Positions 1-64,000 of a DNA stretch of 64,000 nt are shown here, one piece after another. The notes beneath the pieces were generated by a model. That model was not told the origin of the DNA, ran no database searches, and was given only the letters and a program-made list of their open reading frames with translations. The stretch comes from Deltaproteobacteria bacterium (GTDB lineage: Bacteria; Myxococcota_A; UBA9042): assembly GCA_016875335.1 (NCBI GenBank), contig VGRO01000006.1:1-64000 (forward strand), in the 5' to 3' direction. Both the position numbers and the translations under genes were made by a program. How positions within the stretch are numbered: position 1 is the stretch's first letter; each line of letters opens with the position of its first letter.

Positions 1-79
1 CTTGGTCCGCGAGCTGGCGACCCACTGAGCAAGCAAACGGGCCCAAGAAATGATTGAGTAAATCATTTCCGGGCCCTAA
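1..79 (+). repeat. 138-bp dispersed repeat, truncated by window edge
   Basis: This is the right-hand part of the 138-bp repeat found complete at 2603-2740. It holds the GGTCCG arm of the first hairpin, the second hairpin (GAAATGATT and AATCATTTC around a GAGTA loop) and the final ggccctaa. It is the most diverged copy in the window, with at least three substitutions (cccactgag, gcccaagaa, ccgggccc). The left end lies outside the window. Confidence 0.9.
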
Positions 80-121: not shown

Positions 122-2602
122 ATGCCGCCGCGCCCGCTTGTCGCCACCGTCGCCGCCGTCGCCCTGACGCTGTCGGTGGCCTGCCAATCGCCCACACCGC
201 CGCCTGGCGCTGACGCGGGCGACAGCCAATGGGCCGACCTGGGGTCAACGGACAGCGCCGCCGTTCCAGCAGACACCGCCGCCTCCCCCGACAGCGCCGA
301 AGTCGCCGCCGCGCCGTGGAATCCGACGGCGACCGTGCCGCACCAGCCGGGCCCCACGGCCTCCGGGCCGCTACAGGCCGGGCTCGGCGTCGCGCTTTTG
401 CATGGCCCCATCGGCGTCAGCATGGGCGGCTTTGCCGGGCGCTTTACCGGTGTCCACACCCGCTGGAGCGGATCGCTCAAGGGCACCGCCGGCATGTATG
501 GGCGCATGACCGCGAAAGCCTTGGCGCTGCGGGTAGGCACCGAAACCCTGGTGCTGGTCAAGGCGCCGCTCTTGACCTCGGACTCGTACCTGCTGGGCCG
601 CATCGAGGCGGCGGTGCAGGCGCGCACGGGGGTCGATTTGCGCGGCCGCATCATCACCGGCGCCGGCCACAGCCACCACGAGACGGCGCGGTTCTGGCCG
701 ATTCCGCCCGGCCTCGGCGCCATCGGCATGGACACCTTCGACTACGAGGTGGCGGAGCTGCTGGCCCACCATTTCGCGGTGGCGATCCAGCGCGCGCTCG
801 CCGACCTCGGTCCCGCCGAGTGGGCGTGGGCGGCGCACGAAAACTGGGATCCCACGGGCCTCGTGTACCGCGACCGCCGCGGCGCCAACGACCCGACCTG
901 GGGCAAAGATCCGCGCCTGACGCTGGTCGGCGTGCGGCGGCCGGGGGCGACGGCGCCTTTCGCGCTGGTGGTCAATTTCCCCATCCACGGCACGGTGCTG
1001 GGCGATGACAACGATCTACACAACGAAGACGCCCCCGGCTACGTCGAACACAAGCTGGAAGACGCGTTGGCCGACGCCACCGGCAAGCCGACGACGGTGC
1101 TCTTGCTGCAGGCCGCGGGCGGAGACGCCAGTCCGGGCGGCGACCAGCTCGGCCATCCCGGGCCGGCGCGCCTTGAACGCATTGGCGAACTGGCCGCGGG
1201 CCTCATCTTGCCCAAGGTGCCGGCGCTGACCTACAAGCCCGCCATGGACTTGGCCGTGCGCACGGTGCGGTTGGACATCGACTACGACCACTTGTACGCC
1301 GACGCCGACCTCAAGGGCGAGTTCGTCAACGAGGAGAACGTGGCCTACACCTGGGGCGGCTGGCAGTGCGTGGTGCCCGGCCTCACGCCTGGCCAGTCGA
1401 TGAAGGGCAAGCCCAAGCAGTGCCTCGACCTGTCGGTGCTTTTGCCGGCCTTTGGCGAGACGCTGCCGTTTGGCGAGTTGAACCAGGTTGTGCTGACGGC
1501 CGCCAAGCTCGGCGACCTCGGCCTTATCACCCTGCCCGGAGAGCCGACCTATTCGCTGGTGCAGTTCGCGCGGCAGCAGGTCGAGGGCAAGCTGGCCGGG
1601 CTCGGCAGCTTGATGGTGGTCGGCTATGCCCAGGACTACTTTCTGTACCTGACCGCCCCGGACGACTGGATGGTCGGCGGCTACGAGTCGCAGATGAGCG
1701 TGTGGGGGCCGGCGGCCGGGCGCTTCTTTGCGCGCGGTGGCCTCGATCTGCTGACCAACCTTTGGGCGGGCAAGACCCAGCCGACGTTCTGGCAGGCCTC
1801 GCCGTACCTGACCCAGCCGGCCGCCCAACCGCCGCGGACCGAGGAGGCCGCCGTCGACGCAGGCCAGTGGGTGCAAGCGCCGCCGTTGGACGTGTCGCGG
1901 ACGCAAGTGGCGGAGTTGGCGTTCTTGGGCGGCGACCCGGCGTTCTCGATCCCGCGGGTGTCGCTGCAGCGCCAGACGGCCGATGGGTTCGTGGCCGTGC
2001 CCGCGCGCAACCTGCGCCCCGGTGCGACCTACGACAACACCCGCTACGAGATGTTGACCCTGTACCAGCCCGACCCGCCGCCGAACGCCGACACGCAGCC
2101 CAAGCGCAAACACATCTGGCGCGTGCGCTGGGAGGTGCCGATCGACTGGCCCACCGGCACCTACCGCTGGCGCATCGCGCTATACCCGCCCGAGACCGGC
2201 CACAGTCAGGCCACACAGCAATGGGAGAGCGCCCCGTTCGCAGTCCACCCGGCCGAAAAGACGACCGTGCAGGCCGAGCGCAAGGGTTCGCAACTGCTCG
2301 TCCGCGTGGACGTCCAGGGCCAGCCGTACAGTTTGGACGGCAAGCACTCCTGGCCCAAGGCCGGCTGGCGGCTGCTCGACCGCGACGAGAAACATGGCGT
2401 GCCGGCCCGGCTGCGGGCGCCGCTGCAGGTGGTGGTGCAGGCCGGCGGTCAGAAGCTGTCGTTCCCGAGCGTCGCCTACGATGCAGCGCAGAAGGCCCAC
2501 GTCGTCGAGGTCGGGCCGGCGGCGGCGGCTCCCGGGCCGTGGCAGGTGCAGGCCGAGGTCGCCGGGTCGAGCGGGCCGCTGTGGGCGGTGCAGGTGCCGT
2601 AG
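122..2602 (+). CDS. neutral/alkaline ceramidase-like secreted lipoprotein
   Basis: 826 aa. It starts at an ATG with AGGA seven bases upstream. A lipoprotein signal ends in SVAC with Cys21, followed by an Ala/Asp/Ser-rich linker to about residue 70. The body matches neutral ceramidases (PF04734): a histidine cluster GAGHSHHE near 180-187 where the family has its zinc-binding histidine motif, NFPIHGTV near 285-292, and QAAGGDASP near 328-336 corresponding to the family GDxSP motif with the catalytic serine. A beta-rich C-terminal region (about 590-826) fits the family immunoglobulin-like tail. Likely role: hydrolysis of N-acyl sphingoid or similar lipids at the cell surface. The substrate is not deducible. 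The TAG stop directly touches a 138-bp repeat. Confidence 0.85.
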   Translation: MPPRPLVATVAAVALTLSVACQSPTPPPGADAGDSQWADLGSTDSAAVPADTAASPDSAEVAAAPWNPTATVPHQPGPTASGPLQAGLGVALLHGPIGVSMGGFAGRFTGVHTRWSGSLKGTAGMYGRMTAKALALRVGTETLVLVKAPLLTSDSYLLGRIEAAVQARTGVDLRGRIITGAGHSHHETARFWPIPPGLGAIGMDTFDYEVAELLAHHFAVAIQRALADLGPAEWAWAAHENWDPTGLVYRDRRGANDPTWGKDPRLTLVGVRRPGATAPFALVVNFPIHGTVLGDDNDLHNEDAPGYVEHKLEDALADATGKPTTVLLLQAAGGDASPGGDQLGHPGPARLERIGELAAGLILPKVPALTYKPAMDLAVRTVRLDIDYDHLYADADLKGEFVNEENVAYTWGGWQCVVPGLTPGQSMKGKPKQCLDLSVLLPAFGETLPFGELNQVVLTAAKLGDLGLITLPGEPTYSLVQFARQQVEGKLAGLGSLMVVGYAQDYFLYLTAPDDWMVGGYESQMSVWGPAAGRFFARGGLDLLTNLWAGKTQPTFWQASPYLTQPAAQPPRTEEAAVDAGQWVQAPPLDVSRTQVAELAFLGGDPAFSIPRVSLQRQTADGFVAVPARNLRPGATYDNTRYEMLTLYQPDPPPNADTQPKRKHIWRVRWEVPIDWPTGTYRWRIALYPPETGHSQATQQWESAPFAVHPAEKTTVQAERKGSQLLVRVDVQGQPYSLDGKHSWPKAGWRLLDRDEKHGVPARLRAPLQVVVQAGGQKLSFPSVAYDAAQKAHVVEVGPAAAAPGPWQVQAEVAGSSGPLWAVQVP

Positions 2603-2740
2603 GGGACTGGAAAATAATAAGCCGATCACTCTCACATCAGGACGGAGCCGCGAGTCGGACCTTTGGTCCGCGAGCTGGCGACCCACGGAGCAAGCAAACG
2701 GGCCCGAGAAATGATTGAGTAAATCATTTCCTGGCCCTAG
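2603..2740 (+). repeat. 138-bp dispersed repeat, single complete copy
   Basis: Complete copy between the ceramidase stop codon TAG (2600-2602) and the 3' end of the Cys-rich gene. It begins gggactgg and ends ctggccctag, so TAG lies immediately left and is also the last triplet on the right, as for a 3-bp target duplication. Two hairpins: CGGACC-ttt-GGTCCG (2656-2670) and GAAATGATT-gagta-AATCATTTC (2708-2730), the latter enclosed by GGGCC and GGCCC. Confidence 0.92.
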
Positions 2741-5700: not shown

Positions 5701-7151
5701 CCCACGACGGTGACGATGTCGCCCTGGGGCGTGAGCTTGCGAAGGCGGTGGACATCCGCCACCCAGATCGCCCCGTCGGCGGCGCGGGCGACACTGTAGG
5801 TCGCGACGAAAAGCGCTTGGGCCGCGGGCCCGTCGGCCGTGCCGCTCTTCTCCGCGCCCGCCAACGTCGCAATGGTGTAGCCCACCGGCGGCAGGCACTT
5901 GCCGGTCGCGCACGTTTCGCCGGTGGTGCAGCCGTCGCCGTCGTCGCACGGTCCCGAGATCGGCGCGTTGAAACAGGCGCCCGTCTGCTTGTCGCAGCCG
6001 TCGTTGGTGCAGATGTCGCTGTCGGCGCAGTCCTTGAGGCTGAAGTAGTAACACTTGACGGTCTTGTCGTCGCAGGCGTTGGAGGTGCAGGCGTCGTTGT
6101 CGTTGCACACCTGGAGATCGTAGCCGGTGGCGTCGGCCTTGCACGTCGCGACTTGCGGACCCGCGCACTTCTGGCTGCCGGGCGGCCAGCAAGCGCTCGC
6201 CGCGCACGCACCGTTGACGCACGCCTGTTTGCCCGCGCTGCAATCGACAACCTTGGTCGCGCTCAGGCCCTTGGCGTCGCACTTGTGCACCTCGAAGCCG
6301 GCGCAGAAGCTGCTGTCGGGCTTGCACACCTGATCCTTGCACTGGCCGGCGTCGCAGACCTTGTCCGTGCCGCACGCAAACTGCTGCCACGACAGGCCGT
6401 TGTCGGCACAGATGGCCAACTTGCCGGCTTGGCATTCCGTGGCCTTGGGTGTGCAGATGGGCGATTTGCACACGCCGGCCTCGCACACCTGCTTGGTCTG
6501 GTTGCAGTCGGCGATGACAACCATGTTCAGGCCCTTGGCATCGCATTGCTCGGCGACGTTGCCGTTGCAGGCCTTGGCGCCGGGCGCGCAAATGGCGGTC
6601 TTGCACAGGCCCTGGTCGCACACCTTGCCACTGACGCAATCCGTCAGATACCAGGACAGGCCGTCGTTGAGGCACAGCGCCAACTGGCCGCCCTGGCACG
6701 ACGCTGCATTGGGCGTGCACACCAGCGATTTGCAGGTGCCTTTGTCGCACACCTGGCCGGTCTTGGCGCAGTCCTGGGTGGCGGTGTAGCCCAGGCCCTT
6801 GGCGTCGCACGTCTCGACCACCTTGTCGGCACACTGCTTGTTGCCCGGCGTGCAGACGGTGTCCTTGCATTGGCCCTGGTCGCACACCTTGCCGCTCGGG
6901 CAGTCGATCTTGATCCAGTCCAGGCCGCTGTTGGTGCAGATGGCGAGCTGGCCGCCCTGGCAACTGGTGCTGTTGGGGGTGCACAGCAGCTTGACGCACC
7001 CGCCATTGCTGCACACCTCGCCCGTCTTGGCGCAGTCGGCAAGCGCGGTCTGTGCCAGGCCTTTGGCGTCGCACTGCTGGACCACCGTGCCGTTGCACGA
7101 CTTGTCGCCCGGCTTGCACAGGATCGGCTTGCACTGGCCTTGGTCGCACAC
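2772..7151 (-). CDS. 3' fragment: Cys repeats, NHL propellers, TLDc-like domain
   Basis: Open frame of 1,459 codons from a GTG. It is the downstream piece of the interrupted giant gene and lacks any signal peptide. From the N-terminus: about eight Cys repeats, Cys-knot-like spacers (CNDNDACTSNACDD), a first NHL propeller group, a Cys-rich spacer, a second NHL group, further CDDG modules, then about 170 residues with TLDc hallmarks: YKATKDGFSSKVFHTLCD, a FGGFAAKSW segment, ENWLFQLN, and a closing DWTLDEVEVY. It may be unexpressed unless translation restarts at the GTG. Confidence 0.7.
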   Translation of the reverse strand: MCDQGQCKPILCKPGDKSCNGTVVQQCDAKGLAQTALADCAKTGEVCSNGGCVKLLCTPNSTSCQGGQLAICTNSGLDWIKIDCPSGKVCDQGQCKDTVCTPGNKQCADKVVETCDAKGLGYTATQDCAKTGQVCDKGTCKSLVCTPNAASCQGGQLALCLNDGLSWYLTDCVSGKVCDQGLCKTAICAPGAKACNGNVAEQCDAKGLNMVVIADCNQTKQVCEAGVCKSPICTPKATECQAGKLAICADNGLSWQQFACGTDKVCDAGQCKDQVCKPDSSFCAGFEVHKCDAKGLSATKVVDCSAGKQACVNGACAASACWPPGSQKCAGPQVATCKADATGYDLQVCNDNDACTSNACDDKTVKCYYFSLKDCADSDICTNDGCDKQTGACFNAPISGPCDDGDGCTTGETCATGKCLPPVGYTIATLAGAEKSGTADGPAAQALFVATYSVARAADGAIWVADVHRLRKLTPQGDIVTVVGSTGFGATDGPPDKALFYNPAGLVLDGQGYLYVADRGNSRIRKVAPDGYVTTWSGAAGAGYLDGPVADAKFSTVSELAFDKASGWLYVLDTANRRLRAIKPDGQVVTLCGSGSSGYADGACSSAKFGYMEAMALLPDGNVAVYDFENYRIRLIKTDGTVTTLAGSGASGFQDGAASSAKFTNVQGMVAGPDGELYLADGARIRLLAKDQVTTLAGGGSSKQAGDALAFSLLGPMSLTWDDNKALVVGDMYALRKLTPKSAVLCDDLQPCTADACDKATGNCVFKPLSAGAKCDDFTACTANTTCDGKGACSGSAKNCDDSNACTWDGCDALTGACDNHPTAASCTDGDACTPADTCVGGKCVTDQAVVATVAGSTNGYKDGTGSVAQIGQIWGMVVDKNGDLWFADSGNHCLRKMTPQGKVTSEVGQCTKPGYTDGDAATAQFKNPWGLAFDSLGRLVIADHANHRIRLYDPATQKVSTLAGSGSPSYADGPASSAGFNYPTAVAVDSAGAVFVFDVNNYRIRKITNGTVTTVAGSGSAGKQDGAASSATFTNQVYGMAFGPDGALYLADGGNHAIRKLAAGQVSTVAGGSAGYADGPVATAKFNAPYAVGVDSQGQILVADYNNRRMRRLTTKGTVVTDTGNGTASLLDGLGTAATWQYPSGIAIAGVGSAYVYDAYRIRKSTASPIDCDDGKQCTLDKCDSKTGVCSNAPIPNGGACDDGDACTVNEACADSACKGGNAKDCDDNNPCTADSCDKVKGCANAPTNDGQPCGGGNYCAQGKCAPSPCGADPPSVCMPFAGATLLGFTQQQQLNTWYGKAGQKWQLCYKATKDGFSSKVFHTLCDAAPMSMVVMHSTSGLLFGGFAAKSWAGGGSYVASLENWLFQLNKGAKLPVQGCNSKFAMYVQASYGPTFGGGHDLHLDGGMKKGFSNLGHTYTCPATSMPCSPNVPECQGFLAGGYNDWTLDEVEVYYPVP

Positions 7152-7171
7152 GGCCCCGCTCGCGCAATCGG

Positions 7172-7352
7172 CTAGGAGCCTGTCGGCGAAACGCCAGAAT
7201 CGGCAGATTCTGGCCGACAGGCTCCTAGGCAGGCCGCGGCTGCGGCCTGCCAGCGACCGAAACTGCCTGAATTTACTTCAGACAGTTCTTGGTCGCTGCC
7301 CCGATCGCAACCAGCACGGAGCCAGTCGGACGATAGTCCGACAGGCTCCTAG
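7172..7352 (-). mobile_element. CTAG-flanked palindromic MITE-like element inside a gene
   Basis: CTAG occurs at 7172-7175 and 7349-7352, flanking 173 bp whose ends are an 11-bp inverted repeat GAGCCTGTCGG/CCGACAGGCTC. Inside are a 57-bp long hairpin closing on a third CTAG (7172-7228), then GCAGGCCGC-ggct-GCGGCCTGC (7229-7250), CAGCGACC...GGTCGCTG (7251-7298) and GTCGGAC-gata-GTCCGAC (7325-7342). It encodes no protein. Deleting one CTAG plus the element rejoins the host Cys repeat exactly in frame, so this is an insertion with a 4-bp target duplication. Short terminal repeats with a CTAG target suggest mobilisation by a transposase encoded elsewhere; the family is not established here. Confidence 0.85.
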
Positions 7353-9722
7353 CGTCCACGCCAGGCCATTGGTGTTGCAGATGGCCAGCTTGGCGCCCTG
7401 GCACTCGGTGCTGTTGGGGGTGCAAACCACATTCTTGCACAGGCCCTGGTCGCACACCTGGCCGGTCGCGCCGCAGTTGGCCACGGTGCTGACACTGGTG
7501 CCGAGGGCGTCGCACAGCTCGATGGCGTTGCCCTTGCACGCCTTTTCGTTGGGCTTGCACACGGTCGTCTTGCAGGTCCCCTTGTCGCAGACCTGGTTGG
7601 CCGCGCAGGTGGCGCTTGCGAATGCCGTGCCGTTGCTGTTGCAGGTCAGGGTCTTGTTCGCGCCGTCGCAGGTCTTTTCGCCGGGCTTGCAGATGGGCAC
7701 GACGCACTTGCCGGCCGAACACGACAGGAAGGTCTTGGTGCAATCCTGGACGGCCTGACTGGCAGTGCCGGTCGCGTCACACTGCCGCACCACGTCGCCG
7801 TCGCAGGTGAGCGCATTGGGCTGGCACACCACCGCCTTGCAGGCCCCGGCGACACACGCCGAGTAGGCAGGGCACGCGGCTTGGGTCCAGGCCATGCCGT
7901 CGAGCGCGCACGTCGCCAACTGACCTTGTTGACATTCTGTGGCGGCCGGCTTGCACAGTGGTTTCTTGCACTGCTGCTGGTGACAGACCTCGCCGGCCGC
8001 CGCGCAGTCTTTGTTCAGCTTGGGCGCCACGCCCTTGGGGTCGCACTGCATCAACTTGTCACCCGCGCACGACAGGTCGCCCGGCTTGCAGGTCGTCGGC
8101 ACGCACAGGCCGGCATCGCACACCTGGCCAAACGGGCAGGTGATCTTGGCCCACTGGCTGCCCTTGGCTGCGCACGTCGCCAACTGGTCGCCCTGGCACT
8201 CGGTGGCGCCGAGCTTGCAGATGACCGCTGCACAGGCGTTGCCCAGACATACCTTGCCGCCGGCCGCGCAATCTTCGGCGATGGTGGCGGTCAGCCCCAC
8301 GGCGTCGCACAGGCTGACCTTCTCACCCTGGCACATCTTGGTCTTGGGTTCGCAGACCATCGGCTTGCAGGTGCCCCCACCGCACGCCTGACCCGCCGGG
8401 CAGGGCACGACATCAAAGGCCAACCCCTTGGCGTTGCACACTGCAAGGTCGGGACCCTGACACACCGCCGCGCCCGGCTTGCACACGGGCGCCTTGCATG
8501 CCCCGGCATCGCACGCCTCGCCGGTCTTGGCGCAGTCGACCAGCAGCGGATTGTTGGCACCGGTTGCGTCGCACTGGTGGACTTCGCTGCCGTTGCACGA
8601 TTTCTCGTTCGGCTTGCAAATGACCTTGACACACACCGACTTGTCACAGGTCTGGCCGCTCGGGCACGGCTCAGCGGACCAGCCGAGCGCGTCGGCGTTG
8701 CAGGTGGCCAAGAGTCCCGATTGGCACTGTGTGTCGCCGGGCGTGCATGCCTTGGCCACACAGGCACCTTTGTCGCACGCTTGTTGTTGCGCTGCGCAGT
8801 CGGTGGCAATTGCCCAGTCGGTGCCGTCGACCGAACACAATGCAGACTTGAACCCCTCGCATTTCTTGGTTCCTGGCTCGCAAATCTTGGGCTTGCAGGC
8901 TGCGCCGGCGCACACCTGGCCGGCGGGGCACGCCGCGCCCACCCATTGCAGCCCGTCGCTGGCGCAGGTGGCGAGCAGGCCCGCCTGGCATTCGACGGCG
9001 CCCGGCTTGCACACCAAGGTCTTGCATGCACCCGCCACGCAGTTCTGTGCCTTGGCGGTGCAGTCCTCCTTCTTCTGGCTGGCCGTGCCGACCGGATTGC
9101 ACTGGAACACCACATCGCCATTGCACACCGACTCTCCGGCCTTGCACACGTCGGGCACGCAGGCGTTGGCGTTGCAGAACTCCGTAGCGCCGCAATCGGC
9201 GTCGTCCTGGCAATCGACACACCCGACCCCTGGCGCGCACACAAGGCCAGATTTGGCGCAGTCCTTGCTGCTGGTGCACGCCTTGGGCTTGTCGACGCAC
9301 TGCCCAAACGCGCACGCCTGGCCGTCCGCGCAATCGGCGGCCTCGATGCAATCGGCGCAGAATCCGCTCTTGGCATCGCAGACCGCGGCGGCCGAGGTAC
9401 ATTGCTTGCTGCTGGTGCACGCCACCGGGGCTACGCATTGGTTGGCCACGCATCGGCTGTGGGCGACGGGACAGTGACCTGGCATCCGGCACTGCACGCA
9501 CTGGCCGGTGGCGGGCAGGCAAGCGGGCAACGCTTTGGGGCAATCGTCGCTGGTCGCGCAGGTGGCAGAGACTTCGGGCGCGGCGTCGGCGGTGGCCTCG
9601 GCGACTGTCCACGCGTCATCGCCCGCGGTGGCCTCGTCGGTCGCGTCGCCGCCCACCGAGGCAACGTCGCCGTCGGCCGGGCCCGCATCGACCTTCTGGG
9701 TCAGGTCGCGACGGGTTTCTCG
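7278..9722 (-). CDS. 5' fragment: Cys-repeat region of the giant surface protein
   Basis: Upstream piece of the interrupted gene, open from the frameshift near 9722 to a TGA at 7278 inside the palindromic element. The last native residues are NGLAWTL, after which the element encodes GACRTIVRLAPCW and stops. An early part has short Cys pairs (TSSKQC, TSSKDC) resembling EGF-like or myxococcal Cys motifs. From about 9150 downwards come regular CKPG/CEPG repeats that alternate between two sub-types, one with the phrase LATC and one with the phrase QCD. Confidence 0.7.
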   Translation of the reverse strand, partial: RETRRDLTQKVDAGPADGDVASVGGDATDEATAGDDAWTVAEATADAAPEVSATCATSDDCPKALPACLPATGQCVQCRMPGHCPVAHSRCVANQCVAPVACTSSKQCTSAAAVCDAKSGFCADCIEAADCADGQACAFGQCVDKPKACTSSKDCAKSGLVCAPGVGCVDCQDDADCGATEFCNANACVPDVCKAGESVCNGDVVFQCNPVGTASQKKEDCTAKAQNCVAGACKTLVCKPGAVECQAGLLATCASDGLQWVGAACPAGQVCAGAACKPKICEPGTKKCEGFKSALCSVDGTDWAIATDCAAQQQACDKGACVAKACTPGDTQCQSGLLATCNADALGWSAEPCPSGQTCDKSVCVKVICKPNEKSCNGSEVHQCDATGANNPLLVDCAKTGEACDAGACKAPVCKPGAAVCQGPDLAVCNAKGLAFDVVPCPAGQACGGGTCKPMVCEPKTKMCQGEKVSLCDAVGLTATIAEDCAAGGKVCLGNACAAVICKLGATECQGDQLATCAAKGSQWAKITCPFGQVCDAGLCVPTTCKPGDLSCAGDKLMQCDPKGVAPKLNKDCAAAGEVCHQQQCKKPLCKPAATECQQGQLATCALDGMAWTQAACPAYSACVAGACKAVVCQPNALTCDGDVVRQCDATGTASQAVQDCTKTFLSCSAGKCVVPICKPGEKTCDGANKTLTCNSNGTAFASATCAANQVCDKGTCKTTVCKPNEKACKGNAIELCDALGTSVSTVANCGATGQVCDQGLCKNVVCTPNSTECQGAKLAICNTNGLAWTLGACRTIVRLAPCWLRSGQRPRTV

Positions 9723-39404: not shown

Positions 39405-39600
39405 GCGGCTCGCGGCCGGTCTCCTGGCTGGCAGCCCGCGGCGTCGGCCTTCCCGGCGGTGGTCGCCAGTGGCCTTGTGGGCGCATGCGCCCGACGCGGT
39501 GGTTCGGTCACCGACTGCGGCGACCGATGCTGCATACAGTGGCGGGTCCGCGCCGGCTTTGCACCGGCTTCCCTCTGGCGCGCGACGCGGCTGAACGCGG
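39405..39600 (-). promoter_or_regulatory. cobalamin (AdoCbl) riboswitch
   Basis: On the minus strand the 5' part reads gggaagccggtgcaaagccg followed by a cggacccgccactgt stretch, which is the conserved core of cobalamin riboswitches. It ends with a B12 box gccagccaggagaccggcc at 39413-39431. The distance to the BtuB start is about 45 bp, so the element can control the ribosome binding site or an adjoining terminator. It predicts repression of the whole B12 uptake operon when cobalamin is plentiful. Confidence 0.95.
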
Positions 39601-46392: not shown

Positions 46393-47439
46393 TCAGCAGA
46401 AGTTCTGCGTCACCAACACCTGCCCGTCGGCCGTCACCGAGAGGCCAATGGCTTGACTGTGCCACGCCGGCTGTAACAGGTTGGCCTTGTGGCCCGGCGA
46501 GTTCCACCAGCCCTGCACGGTCTCTTCGGCGAGTTCGCCCGCGCTGCGCACGGTTTCGGCTTCGCGGCGACCGTCGGACCACACCCGCCAGCGCGGTACG
46601 CGGTGCACGAGCGCCAGATTTTCGCCGCCGGTCAGGAACCGGCCGGGTCCGTTGGGCACGCGGCACACGTAGCCGGCCCGGCTGTAGCGATCGGTGACCT
46701 GGGCGCCATCGGGCGCGTCGTGGGCAAAATAGCGTTGCCTGCGCATGTCGGCGCTGTGGGCGGTGGCGATGCGCGCGAGATCCGGGTTCCAGGCCAACTG
46801 CGACAGCCCCTCGCGGGCGCGGATGGCGTTGACGCGCACATGGATCTGCTGGGCGAGGTCACCCACATCGAGCGGACCCAGGGCGTCGACCACGGCCGCG
46901 GCCGCCGGGTCAGCCTCAGGCAGCGGCTTGGCACAACCTGCAACGACGGCAAACGCGGCGGCGAGGCAGACGCTCGGTAAGGGACTGGAAAATAACAAGT
47001 CGATCACGCTCACATCAGGACGGAGCCGCGAGTCGGACCTTTGGTCCGCGAGCTGGCGACCCACGGAGCAAGCAAACGGGCCCGAGAAATGATTGAGTAA
47101 ATCATTTCCTGGCCCTAAGGGACTGGAAAATAACAAGTCGATCACGCTCACATCAGGACGGAGCCGCGAGTCGGACCTTTGGTCCGCGAGCTGGCGACCC
47201 ACGGAGCAAGCAAACGGGCCCGAGAAATGATTGAGTAAATCATTTCCTGGCCCTAAGGGACTGGAAAATAACAAGTCGATCACGCTCACATCAGGACGGA
47301 GCCGCGAGTCGGACCTTTGGTCCGCGAGCTGGCGACCCACGGAGCAAGCAAACGGGCCCGAGAAATGATTGAGTAAATCATTTCCTGGCCCTAAACCCAA
47401 GCCTTGGCGCAGGTGGCGTCGACCGGTTGGCGAGGTCAT
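46393..47439 (-). CDS. CAP/SCP-domain lipoprotein with an in-frame triple repeat in its signal peptide
   Basis: 348 codons from ATG 47439, which overlaps the stop of the CNNM gene (ATGA). The CAP domain (about residues 180-345; VNAIREGL-like start, HSADMRRQRYFAHD, GENLA, NSPGHKANLLQPAW) is intact (PF00188). Codons 16-153 are three identical 46-codon repeats (46981-47394) that split the signal peptide between the basic part (MTSPTGRRHLRQGLG) and the hydrophobic part (LPSVCLAAAFAVVAGC). Without them a perfect lipoprotein signal appears. An in-frame GTG near the end of the last repeat could offer a new start (VSVIDLLFSSP before the hydrophobic part). CAP proteins are secreted, of varied function. 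Confidence 0.82.
   Translation of the reverse strand: MTSPTGRRHLRQGLGLGPGNDLLNHFSGPFACSVGRQLADQRSDSRLRPDVSVIDLLFSSPLGPGNDLLNHFSGPFACSVGRQLADQRSDSRLRPDVSVIDLLFSSPLGPGNDLLNHFSGPFACSVGRQLADQRSDSRLRPDVSVIDLLFSSPLPSVCLAAAFAVVAGCAKPLPEADPAAAAVVDALGPLDVGDLAQQIHVRVNAIRAREGLSQLAWNPDLARIATAHSADMRRQRYFAHDAPDGAQVTDRYSRAGYVCRVPNGPGRFLTGGENLALVHRVPRWRVWSDGRREAETVRSAGELAEETVQGWWNSPGHKANLLQPAWHSQAIGLSVTADGQVLVTQNFC
46981..47394 (+). repeat. three identical tandem copies of the 138-bp repeat
   Basis: Copies at 46981-47118, 47119-47256 and 47257-47394, identical to one another. Each begins gggactgg and ends ccctaa; taa also lies directly to the left (46978-46980). Compared with the copy at 2603 they share cagtcga-side variants (ataacaag, cacgctc), so they arose by local duplication. 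Total length 414 bp (138 codons) preserves the frame of the CAP gene. Confidence 0.95.
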
Positions 47440-48749
47440 GGCGCAGGCTCCCGCGGTTCGGCCGGCTCGACGGGCCACAGGCGCAGTTCGACGATCTGGC
47501 CCGCCGTTTGTTTGATCACTTCGAATTCGCAGGCGTCCTCTGCAATCTCGATGCGATCGCCGACCTCGGGGATGCGGCCCGAGCGGGCGATGACCAGGCC
47601 GGCCACCGTGCTCCACTGCTGCGATTCAGGCAAGTCGCGGCCGTAGTCGCGGTTGACGTCGCGCACAGGCGCGTTGCCGTACAGGATCAGCCCGCCGTCG
47701 GGGCAACTGTCGATGAGCCACGATTCGCCGCCGTCGTCCTCGTGGATTTCGCCGACCAGTTCTTCCAGCAGGTCCTCGAGCGTCACCAGGCCGACCAGGC
47801 CGCCATGTTCGTCCACCACCGCCGCCATCGGGCAGTGGTCGTTCAGCAGTTTCTCCAACAACTCGGGTGCCGGCATCTTCCAGGGCGCCACCACGAGCGG
47901 GCGCACCAGGGCCTTCAGGGCTGGCGGTTGGGCCTTGAGGCGCGCCACCAGGATGTCGCGGGTGCGCACGTAGCCCACCGGCTGGTCCAGGGTGCCGCGG
48001 TATGCCACCAGCCGGGTGTGCTGTGTGGCCAGCGCGGCCGCCACGGCGGTGTCCAGGTCGCCGTCGATGTCCAGCGCGTCGATGCGCTTGCGCGGCACGA
48101 CCACGGACTTGGCGGTCAGCTCGGCGAGTTCGAGCGCTCGGCCGGCGATGCGGCCGCTGGTGGCCTCCACCGCACCGGCGCTGGACGCCTCCTCCAGCAG
48201 GATGCGCAGTTCCTCGCCCGACAGCCGCGCCTCGGCGAAGTTGGTCTTGTCTTGGACCAGTCCCAGGACCAGGTTCGAGGTCTTGGTCAGCAGCCAACTG
48301 GCCGGTCGCAGGAATTTGCTCAGGACCAGCAGCCAAGGACCCATGGCGATGGACAGCGTCTCTGCGGAACGAAGCGCCAACGACTTGGGCACCAGCTCGC
48401 CAAAGACCAGCGACACGAAGCTGATGACCGCGACCACGACCCCAAACGCCAGCCATTGGGACCAATCCGCGGCGATCCTCGAGGCCACCAGCCACGCCGA
48501 CAGCCGCTCGACGTATTGCTCGCCGCTGTATGCCGCCGCCGCCGCGCTGACGCCTGTGATGCAGATTTGGACCGTCGCCAGAAAAAGCTCAGGATTGCCG
48601 CGGAGGTTCTGAACGGCGCGGGCCCGGCGGCTGCCGGCCTCGGCCAACTCGCGCAGTCGCGCGCGGCGCACCGACAACACTGCAATCTCGGCGGCGGCGA
48701 AGAGGCCGTTGGCGAGGACCAGGGCGACGATGAGAATGAGTTCGGTCAT
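47436..48749 (-). CDS. CNNM/DUF21-CBS-CorC family membrane protein
   Basis: 437 aa. A DUF21 transmembrane domain (about 1-190; NGLFAAAEIAVLSVRRARL, FGELVPKSLAL) is followed by paired CBS domains (about 205-335; VPRKRIDALD, PMAAVVDEHGGLVGLVTLEDLLEELVGEI) and a CorC/HlyC C-terminal domain. The family includes Mg2+ exporters (CNNM/MpfA) and proteins once called hemolysins. Probable magnesium or cobalt efflux, or membrane-protein quality control. The stop overlaps the CAP gene start. Confidence 0.88.
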   Translation of the reverse strand: MTELILIVALVLANGLFAAAEIAVLSVRRARLRELAEAGSRRARAVQNLRGNPELFLATVQICITGVSAAAAAYSGEQYVERLSAWLVASRIAADWSQWLAFGVVVAVISFVSLVFGELVPKSLALRSAETLSIAMGPWLLVLSKFLRPASWLLTKTSNLVLGLVQDKTNFAEARLSGEELRILLEEASSAGAVEATSGRIAGRALELAELTAKSVVVPRKRIDALDIDGDLDTAVAAALATQHTRLVAYRGTLDQPVGYVRTRDILVARLKAQPPALKALVRPLVVAPWKMPAPELLEKLLNDHCPMAAVVDEHGGLVGLVTLEDLLEELVGEIHEDDGGESWLIDSCPDGGLILYGNAPVRDVNRDYGRDLPESQQWSTVAGLVIARSGRIPEVGDRIEIAEDACEFEVIKQTAGQIVELRLWPVEPAEPREPAP

Positions 48750-53453: not shown

Positions 53454-53729
53454 GGGGCTGGAAAATAATAAGTCGATCACGCTCACATCAGGACGGAGCC
53501 GCGAGTCGGACCTTTGGTCCGCGAGCTGGCGACCCACGGAGCAAGCAATCGGGCCCGAGAAATGATTGAGTAAATCATTTCCTGGCCCTAAGGGGCTGGA
53601 AAATAATAAGTCGATCACGCTCACATCAGGACGGAGCCGCGAGTCGGACCCTTGGTCCGCGAGCTGGCGACCCACGGAGCAAGCAATCGGGCCCGAGAAA
53701 TGATTGAGTAAATCATTTCCTGGCCCTAA
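53454..53729 (+). repeat. two tandem copies of the 138-bp repeat
   Basis: Copies at 53454-53591 and 53592-53729. They differ at one position, inside the first hairpin loop (cctttgg versus cccttgg). Both share ggggctgg and caatcgg, variants absent from the other loci, which shows local duplication. The right end touches the stop codon of the next minus-strand gene (TAG at 53730-53732). Confidence 0.95.
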
Positions 53730-61102: not shown

Positions 61103-63435
61103 CTGGCCCTCGCGAGGCGCCACGGTACGGTGTCGCCCGGATAGCTGTGGAATTCGCCGGGCAGCCCCTGCGCCATGGTGCCGGACCACGGACGCACGAA
61201 GCCCGAGCGGGCCGGTTGGCTGGCGTCCAGCAGCGGTGCGAGTTCGGCGCAAGGCGTCGCCAGCCCCGGCAAGTCGATGGCCTCGCATGCCGGCCCCAGC
61301 CACACCCATGCGGGCGAAGGCGGACGCCCGGCGGCACAAGCAGCGCGGTACTCGTCGGTGCTGACGCGGTGCGACACCGGGCCAGCGCGTGTCCAGGCCC
61401 CGACCGGGACATCCATGACGACGTGGCGGCGTTCTCCCGGCTCGCGTTCTGGGGCGAGCAGCCACAGGTCGCCTGTCTCCTGCCCGAGTTCGCGGCGCAA
61501 GATGGCGTAGCCCTGGCCCTGCGCGTCGAGCGCGTCGGCACCGAACGGCGACCACAAGCACTGCAGCACACCAATCCCCAACGCCGCAAGCACCGCCAAG
61601 CCCAGCCATGGCCGCACGCGGTCGCTGGCCAGCTCGGCCATGCGGGGGGCAAACGCGATGACGACGACCCACGCCGCCGCCATCGGAGCCTGGTAGCGCA
61701 CGGCGTCCGTCACGCACGCCACCACCAGCAGGCCGGCGATGCCGAGCGCCACCAGCCCCGCCAGCATCGCCGCCAGCGACCAACGCGCAACCGCCCGGCC
61801 GTGCACCAATCGCTGTGCGTACAGACCACCCAGCCCCGCCAGGGCCCCGGCTGTCGTCAGCGCCGCTGGTGCCCATGCGCGGTTCCACCACAGCTCATAC
61901 AGCCAGAAACCGCGCGGCACGGGCAGCCATCCGGTGGCCGCGAGGCGGCTGCCGACCAATTCAGCCTGCCCGGCCATTCGCCACGCGACAAGGCCGGCGA
62001 CCAAGCCGAACCCGGCCGCCAGAGCCAGCAGGTTGTTGCCGGAGGGGAGGGCCGCACGCAGGCCTGCGGCAGATTGGGGCTGAGCCGAATGATGTTGCGG
62101 GGTTGAACGATCCCCCCCTTCATTCAAGTGTGCGAAATTGCTGGAAGTGCTCGGCTTCCCGCTCGGCCGCAGCACTGCGAGCGCACCGGGATTCGGGAAC
62201 GTTCCATCATTTCGGGCAGTTGAACGATCCCCCCCTTCATTCAAGTCCCCGAAATTACTAGAAACGTCGATCTGCCGTGGTGAAGGCGGAGGCGGCTCAG
62301 CGCCAGGATGCAGGATTTCTCCGTCATTCCAGACAGTTGAATGATCCCCCCCTCTGTTCAAGTCCCTGAAAACACGAGAACTGGTGGCGCCGTGCGGCCG
62401 AATCGACAGGGCCCAGGCACACAGACCCGCGCCCACAGCGAACACGGGCCCCAGCGGGTGCCCCGAGGCGAGCAAGCCCAGCGCGGCCAACACGCCCACG
62501 GTGTCCCAGCGCCCAGAGCGCGCCTCATAGGGCGGCGACGCCAGCCACAAGGCCGCGGCCACCAGGAACTGCGCGACCACCAGCGTGCTCTCGCTGTTGC
62601 CGACGCGCACCGCGAGCGGGGACCACACCATCAGCGCCCCGGCGGCCAGCGCCGGCAACCAACGGGTTGTCGCCCGTCGCGCTGCGAGCACGGCGAGTAC
62701 GGTGGCCAGCGCCCCCAGAGCCGCGGCCCACCGACCCAGTGCCTCGTGGTCGTTGCCCCACAGGGGCGCGGTCCAGCGCTGCAGTTGCCACCAGGCCGGA
62801 CCGTACTCTGTCAGAAGGCGGTGCGCGCCAGTGTCTGCCCCCGGCAGCCCAAGACCCACGGCGATTTCGAGCCACGCATGGTCATCGGCGTGCAGTGGCG
62901 TGAACGGCGCAGCCCGACGCGCGGCGGCCGCCACGACGAGCAGCACGCCGCCAAACACCAGCGCGCTCCACGTGCGCGGTCGGCGCAGGGCCTTGGCCAC
63001 CATTGCCGCCGCGAGCACGACCCACAGGCCCGCCGTCAGATAGCCGAGCGGCGTCGCGAATTCGGGCGCGGGCCCGGCCGGAGCCGCAGAAGCTGCGGTC
63101 ACCGTCGTCGGTCCAGACGTAGCGTGGCGAAAGAAGCTGCCGTCGTCGTTGCGCGCGATGGCGGCGGCCACCAGATCCGTGGCCAGGCCGAGTCTATCCG
63201 GTGCTGAAGGGGCCTGGACCGAAAAGGCCTTTGGGCCGCCGGCCAGGGCAGGGCGCAAGGTCACCGTCGCCGATTGCCCCGCAGCGTCTCGCAAATCGAC
63301 TGCGACGCTATCCGCGCCGATGCGCACGTTGTCCAGCACGACGCCCGTGTCGGCCACGGGTTGGCCGTCGCGAAACGGCGCCAGCAGTCGCAGGACGTCG
63401 GCCTCGCGGCCGCGGGCAATCACGAGGCTGGGCAT
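61090..63435 (-). CDS. multi-spanning glycosyltransferase-like membrane protein with in-frame 117-bp repeats
   Basis: 781 aa. An N-terminal soluble beta domain (about 1-125) is followed by about ten transmembrane segments. The first periplasmic loop has HADDHAWLEIAVGLGLPG, resembling the Asp pair of GT-C/ArnT-PMT-type glycosyltransferases, and LLTEYGPAWWQLQRW. A hydrophilic loop of about 110 residues (near residues 350-450) consists of three repeats with a DLNEGGDRST-type core, encoded by the 117-bp DNA repeat. Without it the protein would be a normal GT-C-like enzyme. Substrate unknown. Confidence 0.72.
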   Translation of the reverse strand: MPSLVIARGREADVLRLLAPFRDGQPVADTGVVLDNVRIGADSVAVDLRDAAGQSATVTLRPALAGGPKAFSVQAPSAPDRLGLATDLVAAAIARNDDGSFFRHATSGPTTVTAASAAPAGPAPEFATPLGYLTAGLWVVLAAAMVAKALRRPRTWSALVFGGVLLVVAAAARRAAPFTPLHADDHAWLEIAVGLGLPGADTGAHRLLTEYGPAWWQLQRWTAPLWGNDHEALGRWAAALGALATVLAVLAARRATTRWLPALAAGALMVWSPLAVRVGNSESTLVVAQFLVAAALWLASPPYEARSGRWDTVGVLAALGLLASGHPLGPVFAVGAGLCAWALSIRPHGATSSRVFRDLNRGGDHSTVWNDGEILHPGAEPPPPSPRQIDVSSNFGDLNEGGDRSTARNDGTFPNPGALAVLRPSGKPSTSSNFAHLNEGGDRSTPQHHSAQPQSAAGLRAALPSGNNLLALAAGFGLVAGLVAWRMAGQAELVGSRLAATGWLPVPRGFWLYELWWNRAWAPAALTTAGALAGLGGLYAQRLVHGRAVARWSLAAMLAGLVALGIAGLLVVACVTDAVRYQAPMAAAWVVVIAFAPRMAELASDRVRPWLGLAVLAALGIGVLQCLWSPFGADALDAQGQGYAILRRELGQETGDLWLLAPEREPGERRHVVMDVPVGAWTRAGPVSHRVSTDEYRAACAAGRPPSPAWVWLGPACEAIDLPGLATPCAELAPLLDASQPARSGFVRPWSGTMAQGLPGEFHSYPGDTVPWRLARARCPD
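62102..62385 (-). repeat. three 117-bp tandem repeats inside a gene
   Basis: Starts at 62102, 62219 and 62336, exactly 117 bp apart. The conserved core on the plus strand is gttgaacgatcccccccttc, followed by attcaagtccccgaaa; about 60 bp between cores are poorly conserved. 117 bp is 39 codons, and on the minus strand each core reads DLNEGGDRST-like, so the host frame is kept. Confidence 0.88.
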
Positions 63436-63954: not shown

Positions 63955-64000
63955 TTGCTGAGCACCGGAATGCGGCCGGGCAGCGACACGATCATCAGCG
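63951..64000 (-). CDS. 3' end of a gene continuing beyond the window
   Basis: Only about 15 codons are visible, reading LMIVSLPGRIPVLSK and then TGA, which overlaps the ATG of the lipoprotein gene in the 4-bp pattern of this operon. Nothing can be said about its product. Confidence 0.5.
   Translation of the reverse strand, partial: LMIVSLPGRIPVLSK

Follow-up and report, generated by a model that had tools for sequence, protein, structure and literature searches.

The Repeat and Its Copies in the Window

The stretch of DNA analyzed here (the window) covers contig C6 of a freshwater myxobacterium from its first base (position 1) to base 64,000; all the genomes compared are fragmented metagenome-assembled genomes (MAGs). 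Near its left end, a ceramidase-like gene is directly followed by a short structured repeat, for which a first-pass annotation had claimed seven copies at four loci, a unit of exactly 138 bp, and truncation of the copy at 1-79. The features delimited were the following.

122-2602: ceramidase-like gene (Pfam PF04734)
2600..2602, + strand: left target duplication TAG, serving also as stop codon of the ceramidase-like gene (sequence; duplication statistics)
2603..2737, + strand: complete 135-bp element, adjoining the 3' side of that stop codon (blastn over the genome)
2603..2627, + strand: left terminal inverted repeat, GGGACTGGAAAATAATAAGCCGATC, family consensus ...AAGTCGATC (sequence)
2644..2682, + strand: core hairpin, a covarying stem with two tandem G.A pairs (core alignment)
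2644..2701, + strand: region of covariance model R1, 58 nt, the core hairpin plus a conserved ACCCAC..AGCAAGCAA tail (80.4 bits)
2700..2737, + strand: right terminal hairpin, in which an inner inverted copy pairs with the right terminal repeat (folding of 21 element types)
2713..2737, - strand: right terminal inverted repeat, GGGCCAGGAAATGATTTACTCAATC (sequence)
2738..2740, + strand: right target duplication TAG (sequence)
46981..47115, + strand: three-copy array, copy 1 (TAA duplications at 46978-46980 and 47116-47118)
47119..47253, + strand: three-copy array, copy 2 (TAA at 47254-47256)
47257..47391, + strand: three-copy array, copy 3 (TAA at 47392-47394)
53454..53588, + strand: two-copy pair, copy 1 (left flank CAA; TAA at 53589-53591)
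53592..53726, + strand: two-copy pair, copy 2 (TAA at 53727-53729)
1..76, + strand: right portion of a copy interrupted by the contig start (duplication TAA, 77-79; R1 match)

All seven copies are indeed present, one at 2603-2740, three at 46981-47394, two at 53454-53729, and an incomplete one at 1-79. The figure of 138 bp stands as a period; the unit itself, as the flank analysis described below shows, consists of 135 bp of element and 3 bp of target duplication, and tandem copies recur every 138 bp because neighbors are separated by a single such duplication. Likewise, the copy at 1-79 is incomplete but not biologically truncated, since contig C6 breaks inside the repeat; many contigs of this assembly end within it. 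The element encodes no transposase, as had been noted, a single reverse frame being open over 46 codons per unit. Its terminal inverted repeats are imperfect (the left-end consensus matches the right end at 17 of 25 positions), a pattern also found in the copies of genomes G003 and G005.

In a CAP-domain lipoprotein gene (46393-47616, - strand), the three-copy array apparently falls in the signal-peptide region and keeps the frame, the open reverse frame of 46 codons per unit amounting to an apparent N-terminal insertion of 138 residues. Elsewhere, the window holds a cobalamin riboswitch (39418-39573, - strand, 51.4 bits), a 58-bp repeat (GTTGAACGATCCCCCCCTTCATTCAAGT) in three diverged copies at a spacing of 117 bp (62089-62380), and a long tandem-repeat region in multiples of about 132/264 bp, probably a gene for a cysteine-rich repeat protein (6204-9300).

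Across the 6.66 Mb of the genome, a 19-bp pattern from the core, allowed up to 3 mismatches, matches at 243 places and its reversed control at 41, which puts the number of copies of the element at about 200. Eleven long contigs sampled from it (751 kb) contain 15 strong core matches. Same-genus genomes hold diverged families, with copies sharing about 75% (G005) and 80-85% (G003) identity with the query; the relatives named among the matches listed are Myxococcota MAGs from fresh water and groundwater (Lake Baikal and others).

Target Duplications and Transposon Nature

Flanks were analyzed for 102 copies in own-genome loci, 82 of them full-length, and 78 intact copies entered a permutation test. 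The left/right pairs among own-genome copies were TAA/TAA (32), TTA/TTA (24), TGA (5), TCA (4), TAG (2), and TTG (2). Identical trinucleotides, nearly all TNA, flank 68 of the 78 intact copies, versus a mean of 24 and a maximum of 37 over 1000 flank permutations, and identity over 4 or more bp was seen in none of the 78. The bases just outside TNA are mostly C or G, and tandem copies have one TNA in common between neighbors. Matching 3-bp flanks accompany 11 of 12 copies in G005; duplications are weaker in G003 (8 of 15 copies; permutation mean 4.3, maximum 9). One copy lies within an IS5-family transposase gene of this genome and divides it: when the flanks are joined minus one TTA, the reading frame is restored (...RRLSKD joined to YEQSARSS...), and the joined gene acts as an empty site. 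A lone right-terminal hairpin of about 38 bp, core-free, was also observed between TCA and TTA (L113 80-117).

Short, transposase-free, dispersed in about 200 copies, and delimited by inverted ends and a fixed 3-bp duplication, the element is a non-autonomous DNA transposon (MITE), probably of the DDE type. Its TNA target with an exclusive 3-bp repeat is the rule stated for the IS1031 group of IS5 (PMC12016507). The mobile, non-autonomous, structured element proposed in the first-pass annotation is thereby upheld, compensatory changes in a stem (see below) adding to the inverted ends, duplications, and copy number. Two other origins have to be weighed against these data. Conserved hairpins and tandem copies would also suit a REP-like or IS200/IS605-like element moved by a hairpin-recognizing Y1 HUH transposase. 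HUH transposition is not known to make a target duplication, however, while here the duplicated trinucleotides are variable and match on both sides, and the ends are inverted repeats, which renders such an origin very improbable. Contigs that often finish in the repeat might instead point to an assembly artefact, a vector, or a satellite array, of which the first two had been named at the outset as a caveat; many distinct flanks with matched duplications, together with diverged copies in independent MAGs, rule this out for practical purposes.

Insertion Sites Relative to Genes

When genes were called with a codon model trained on the genome, the duplication fell exactly on the stop codon of a flanking coding frame in 18 of 62 independent insertions; matched random sites gave about 2.5. 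Over 815 kb, occupied STWAS sites (TAA and TTA targets) comprise 11 at stops, 26 intergenic, and 3 in genes, and unoccupied ones 7, 89, and 89; stops are more often occupied than intergenic sites (odds ratio 5.4, p = 0.0015) and occupied sites are depleted in genes (p = 6e-7), all these site-bias statistics being exploratory, as the hypothesis arose from the same copies and the result is tied to the gene model. Of the genes next to the element, 58 point toward it and 25 away from it, and flanking gene pairs are convergent in 10 cases and divergent in 1. The element itself shows no preferred orientation relative to the genes running in (29:29), an observation that disfavors a cis role within host mRNAs.

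TNA reads as a stop on one strand or the other (TAA and TGA, or TTA and TCA backwards), and because of this the duplication restores the stop. In-gene copies would be lost through selection and stop-codon insertions would regenerate the stop, copies probably accumulating at gene 3' ends as a result. A regenerated stop codon offers a 3-bp-duplicating transposon a simple way to sit harmlessly at gene ends and, with about 200 copies, the element is one of the main influences shaping the 3' ends of this bacterium's genes. Rickettsia RPE insert in frame into proteins; such insertion was considered here as a general strategy and discarded, the five called in-gene insertions having mixed phases.

Two Hairpins and a Covarying Core

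The two conserved hairpins described in the first-pass annotation are both real and conserved across species, and they differ in kind: one is a covarying core common to several element families, the other a terminal repeat paired with its inner inverted copy. The right terminal hairpin folds in 21 sequence-different element types, mostly with strong z-scores (weak in G008, -1.5); these form a curated set, used in place of a loose regex scan for right hairpins, which picked up noise.

In the core stem, covariance modeling brought out the compensatory changes that had been looked for. Across 41 sequences, standard pairs fill 91.8% of pair cells versus 83.6% when shuffled, two-sided changes number 55 versus 17.7, and the covariation score is 0.236 versus 0.099, with 0 of 500 shuffles reaching the observed value; this shuffle control ignores relatedness, and the structure was drawn by inspection of the same sequences. 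Sliding the partner by 1-3 columns, as a control, lowers pairing to 25-46%. Alignment A2, which is larger, is biased towards the structure, having been fitted to the model. Pair 6-34 occurs as CG, GU, AU, GC, and UA. The stem has two interruptions, each a tandem G.A motif, the outer one being GA/GA in 62 rows and Watson-Crick UC/GA in 11 rows, in other genera. At pair 6-34, G-U is found in 36 of 81 rows and the mirror C-A in 0 of 81, an asymmetry indicating that the folded strand is the + strand.

The core most likely acts as a folded RNA or single-stranded DNA. It would be a conserved folded single strand, most likely a putative RNA transcribed from the + strand, carried as a module in several element families. 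MITE hairpins are usually attributed to their inverted ends. Here, selection maintains a separate, internal, strand-specific fold even as the ends change, so that the ends are not all that matters in the element; our best guess is that the core helps the element itself to spread or be tolerated, rather than serving neighbor genes.

Distribution and Carriers of the Core

Of 52 genomes of the class, 15 contain the core according to model R1. All 15 belong to the element's own family (15 of the 22 genomes searched in this Myxococcota family) and are spread over 6 genera, and none of the genomes of other families yields a match. Across 379 genomes of the phylum, the same 15 were recovered plus two single weak matches (G120 and G150), which lack element context and were dismissed as chance-like. 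Distant blastn against plasmids and phages gave nothing, nor did a search of viral contigs by core pattern. The first-pass annotation had recognized no described family, and none was found in the literature or in Rfam, where nothing on the repeat exceeds the gathering threshold (the best weak matches, on the array, score 11-15.5 bits). Within the window, the cobalamin riboswitch was the sole Rfam hit.

Several element types carry the core. Within TNA-like flanks, carrier termini are GGGACTGG (G000 and G003), GGGCGTGTAAAAG (G005), GGGCTCGTAAAAC (G001), and GGAACTGTGACA (G005 and G001). A 145-bp class in G014 and G019 reads TACATCCCTGC...GGCAGGCATGTT within CTA..TAG flanks, and another carrier, in G003, has CTATACAGAATCGC ends. 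The core also occurs at contig ends in tandem arrays of other units with no recognizable transposon ends (L155 3697-3989, L132 1-222, L159 1-284), the unit being 117 bp long in G003 and a compound one in the window's own genome.

We tentatively suggest, at somewhat less than even odds, that the core is a new structured RNA class (or folded single-stranded DNA) of one Myxococcota family, taken up by at least two transposon kinds with different ends and target rules, and aiding its carrier's spread or tolerance. The capture part alone competes with a reading in which the shared core marks one old MITE family whose ends diverged along with their transposases. Most element types keep GG(G/A) starts, a subterminal ACTCGATCG motif, and TNA-like duplications across genera, as descent from one family would have it, yet the elements of genus g6 (145 bp, TACATCCCTGC/ATGTTTAG, CTA..TAG flanks) and the CTATACAGAATCGC elements of G003 have little beyond the core in common; we regard single descent as close to an even bet. 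Unlikely, in our judgment, is a core that serves the host as a structured RNA or DNA site (in 3'-end processing, stability, or termination, for example), merely spread by transposons as proposed for NEMIS or REP. The strong covariation and the placement of copies at gene 3' ends (58 genes running in versus 25 away, 10 convergent pairs versus 1 divergent) would fit it, but that placement is explained by purifying selection and stop-codon targets, the 29:29 orientation is at odds with a strand-specific fold acting on neighboring genes, and the core is missing from several genomes of the same family.

The Putative Partner Transposase and a Model of Spread

An autonomous element with matching ends was not found in G000, G003, or G005, which are draft genomes, and MAGs lose multi-copy insertion sequences (IS). 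A partner search by end patterns excluding the MITE interior returned only mutated MITE copies or subfamilies. In the transposase-family search, IS5-type DDE_Tnp_1 genes occur in the genus and DDE_Tnp_4 genes are absent. Where definable, the ends of the IS5-type elements are GAGGGTGT, unlike those of the 135-bp element; since the inverted-end search yielded no IS with matching GGG... ends among them, the partner is one that we infer. One complete IS in G019 has TTA duplications.

A MITE with a folded core module, moved in trans by an IS5-type transposase and making its own targets, is the explanation that we favor, with a probability of roughly 85%. A trans-acting DDE transposase, most likely of the IS5 superfamily with the IS1031-group TNA rule, would bind the imperfect inverted ends, mobilize the element, insert it at S-TNA-S, and duplicate the three bases; the partner IS would be expected to bear GGGACTGGAAAATAATAAG / GGGCCAGGAAATGATTTAC ends. 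With ends that begin with G and finish with C, each insertion leaves fresh C-TNA-G type targets, and the 138-bp arrays arise because an insertion recreates its target beside itself, where further copies land.

A second family of short elements (180-200 bp) has GAGGGTGTAGCCAAA ends and is flanked mostly by TAA duplications (L013 1300-1502, L016 1638-1817, L063 1511-1690, L066 1539-1738), and it matches the end of an IS5-type IS in L044. Its copies often abut the 138-bp element, as each insertion recreates its TNA target, a frequency biased by a sample picked for the 138-bp element.

Comparison with Known Systems

The dispersed hairpins of REP/RAYT systems, like the element, lie at gene 3' ends. 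REPs are not known to make target duplications and depend on Y1 transposases, whereas 68 of 78 copies carry a duplication here. RUP of Streptococcus pneumoniae is, similarly to the 135-bp element, a short, high-copy, intergenic MITE with very similar copies, found also in IS transposase genes. It measures 107 bp, has 108 copies and TA targets, and has its ends in common with IS630-Spn1 (PMC2229807); unlike the 135-bp element, no functional motif besides the RUP ends is described in that report. ERIC/IRU, Correia/NEMIS, and CIR also span 100-200 bp, their transcripts would fold, and several have target duplications (PMC2229807), although their folds involve mainly end-to-end or arm pairing and the same report describes no core common to families with different ends. 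The IS1031-group (IS5) elements and their MITEs combine, as the 135-bp element does, a 3-bp TNA duplication, short inverted ends, many copies, and no coding capacity. The 135-bp element departs from IS1031-group MITEs in that no IS with the same ends was found, and in having an unusually conserved covarying core and an inner, third copy of the terminal repeat that forms the terminal hairpin.
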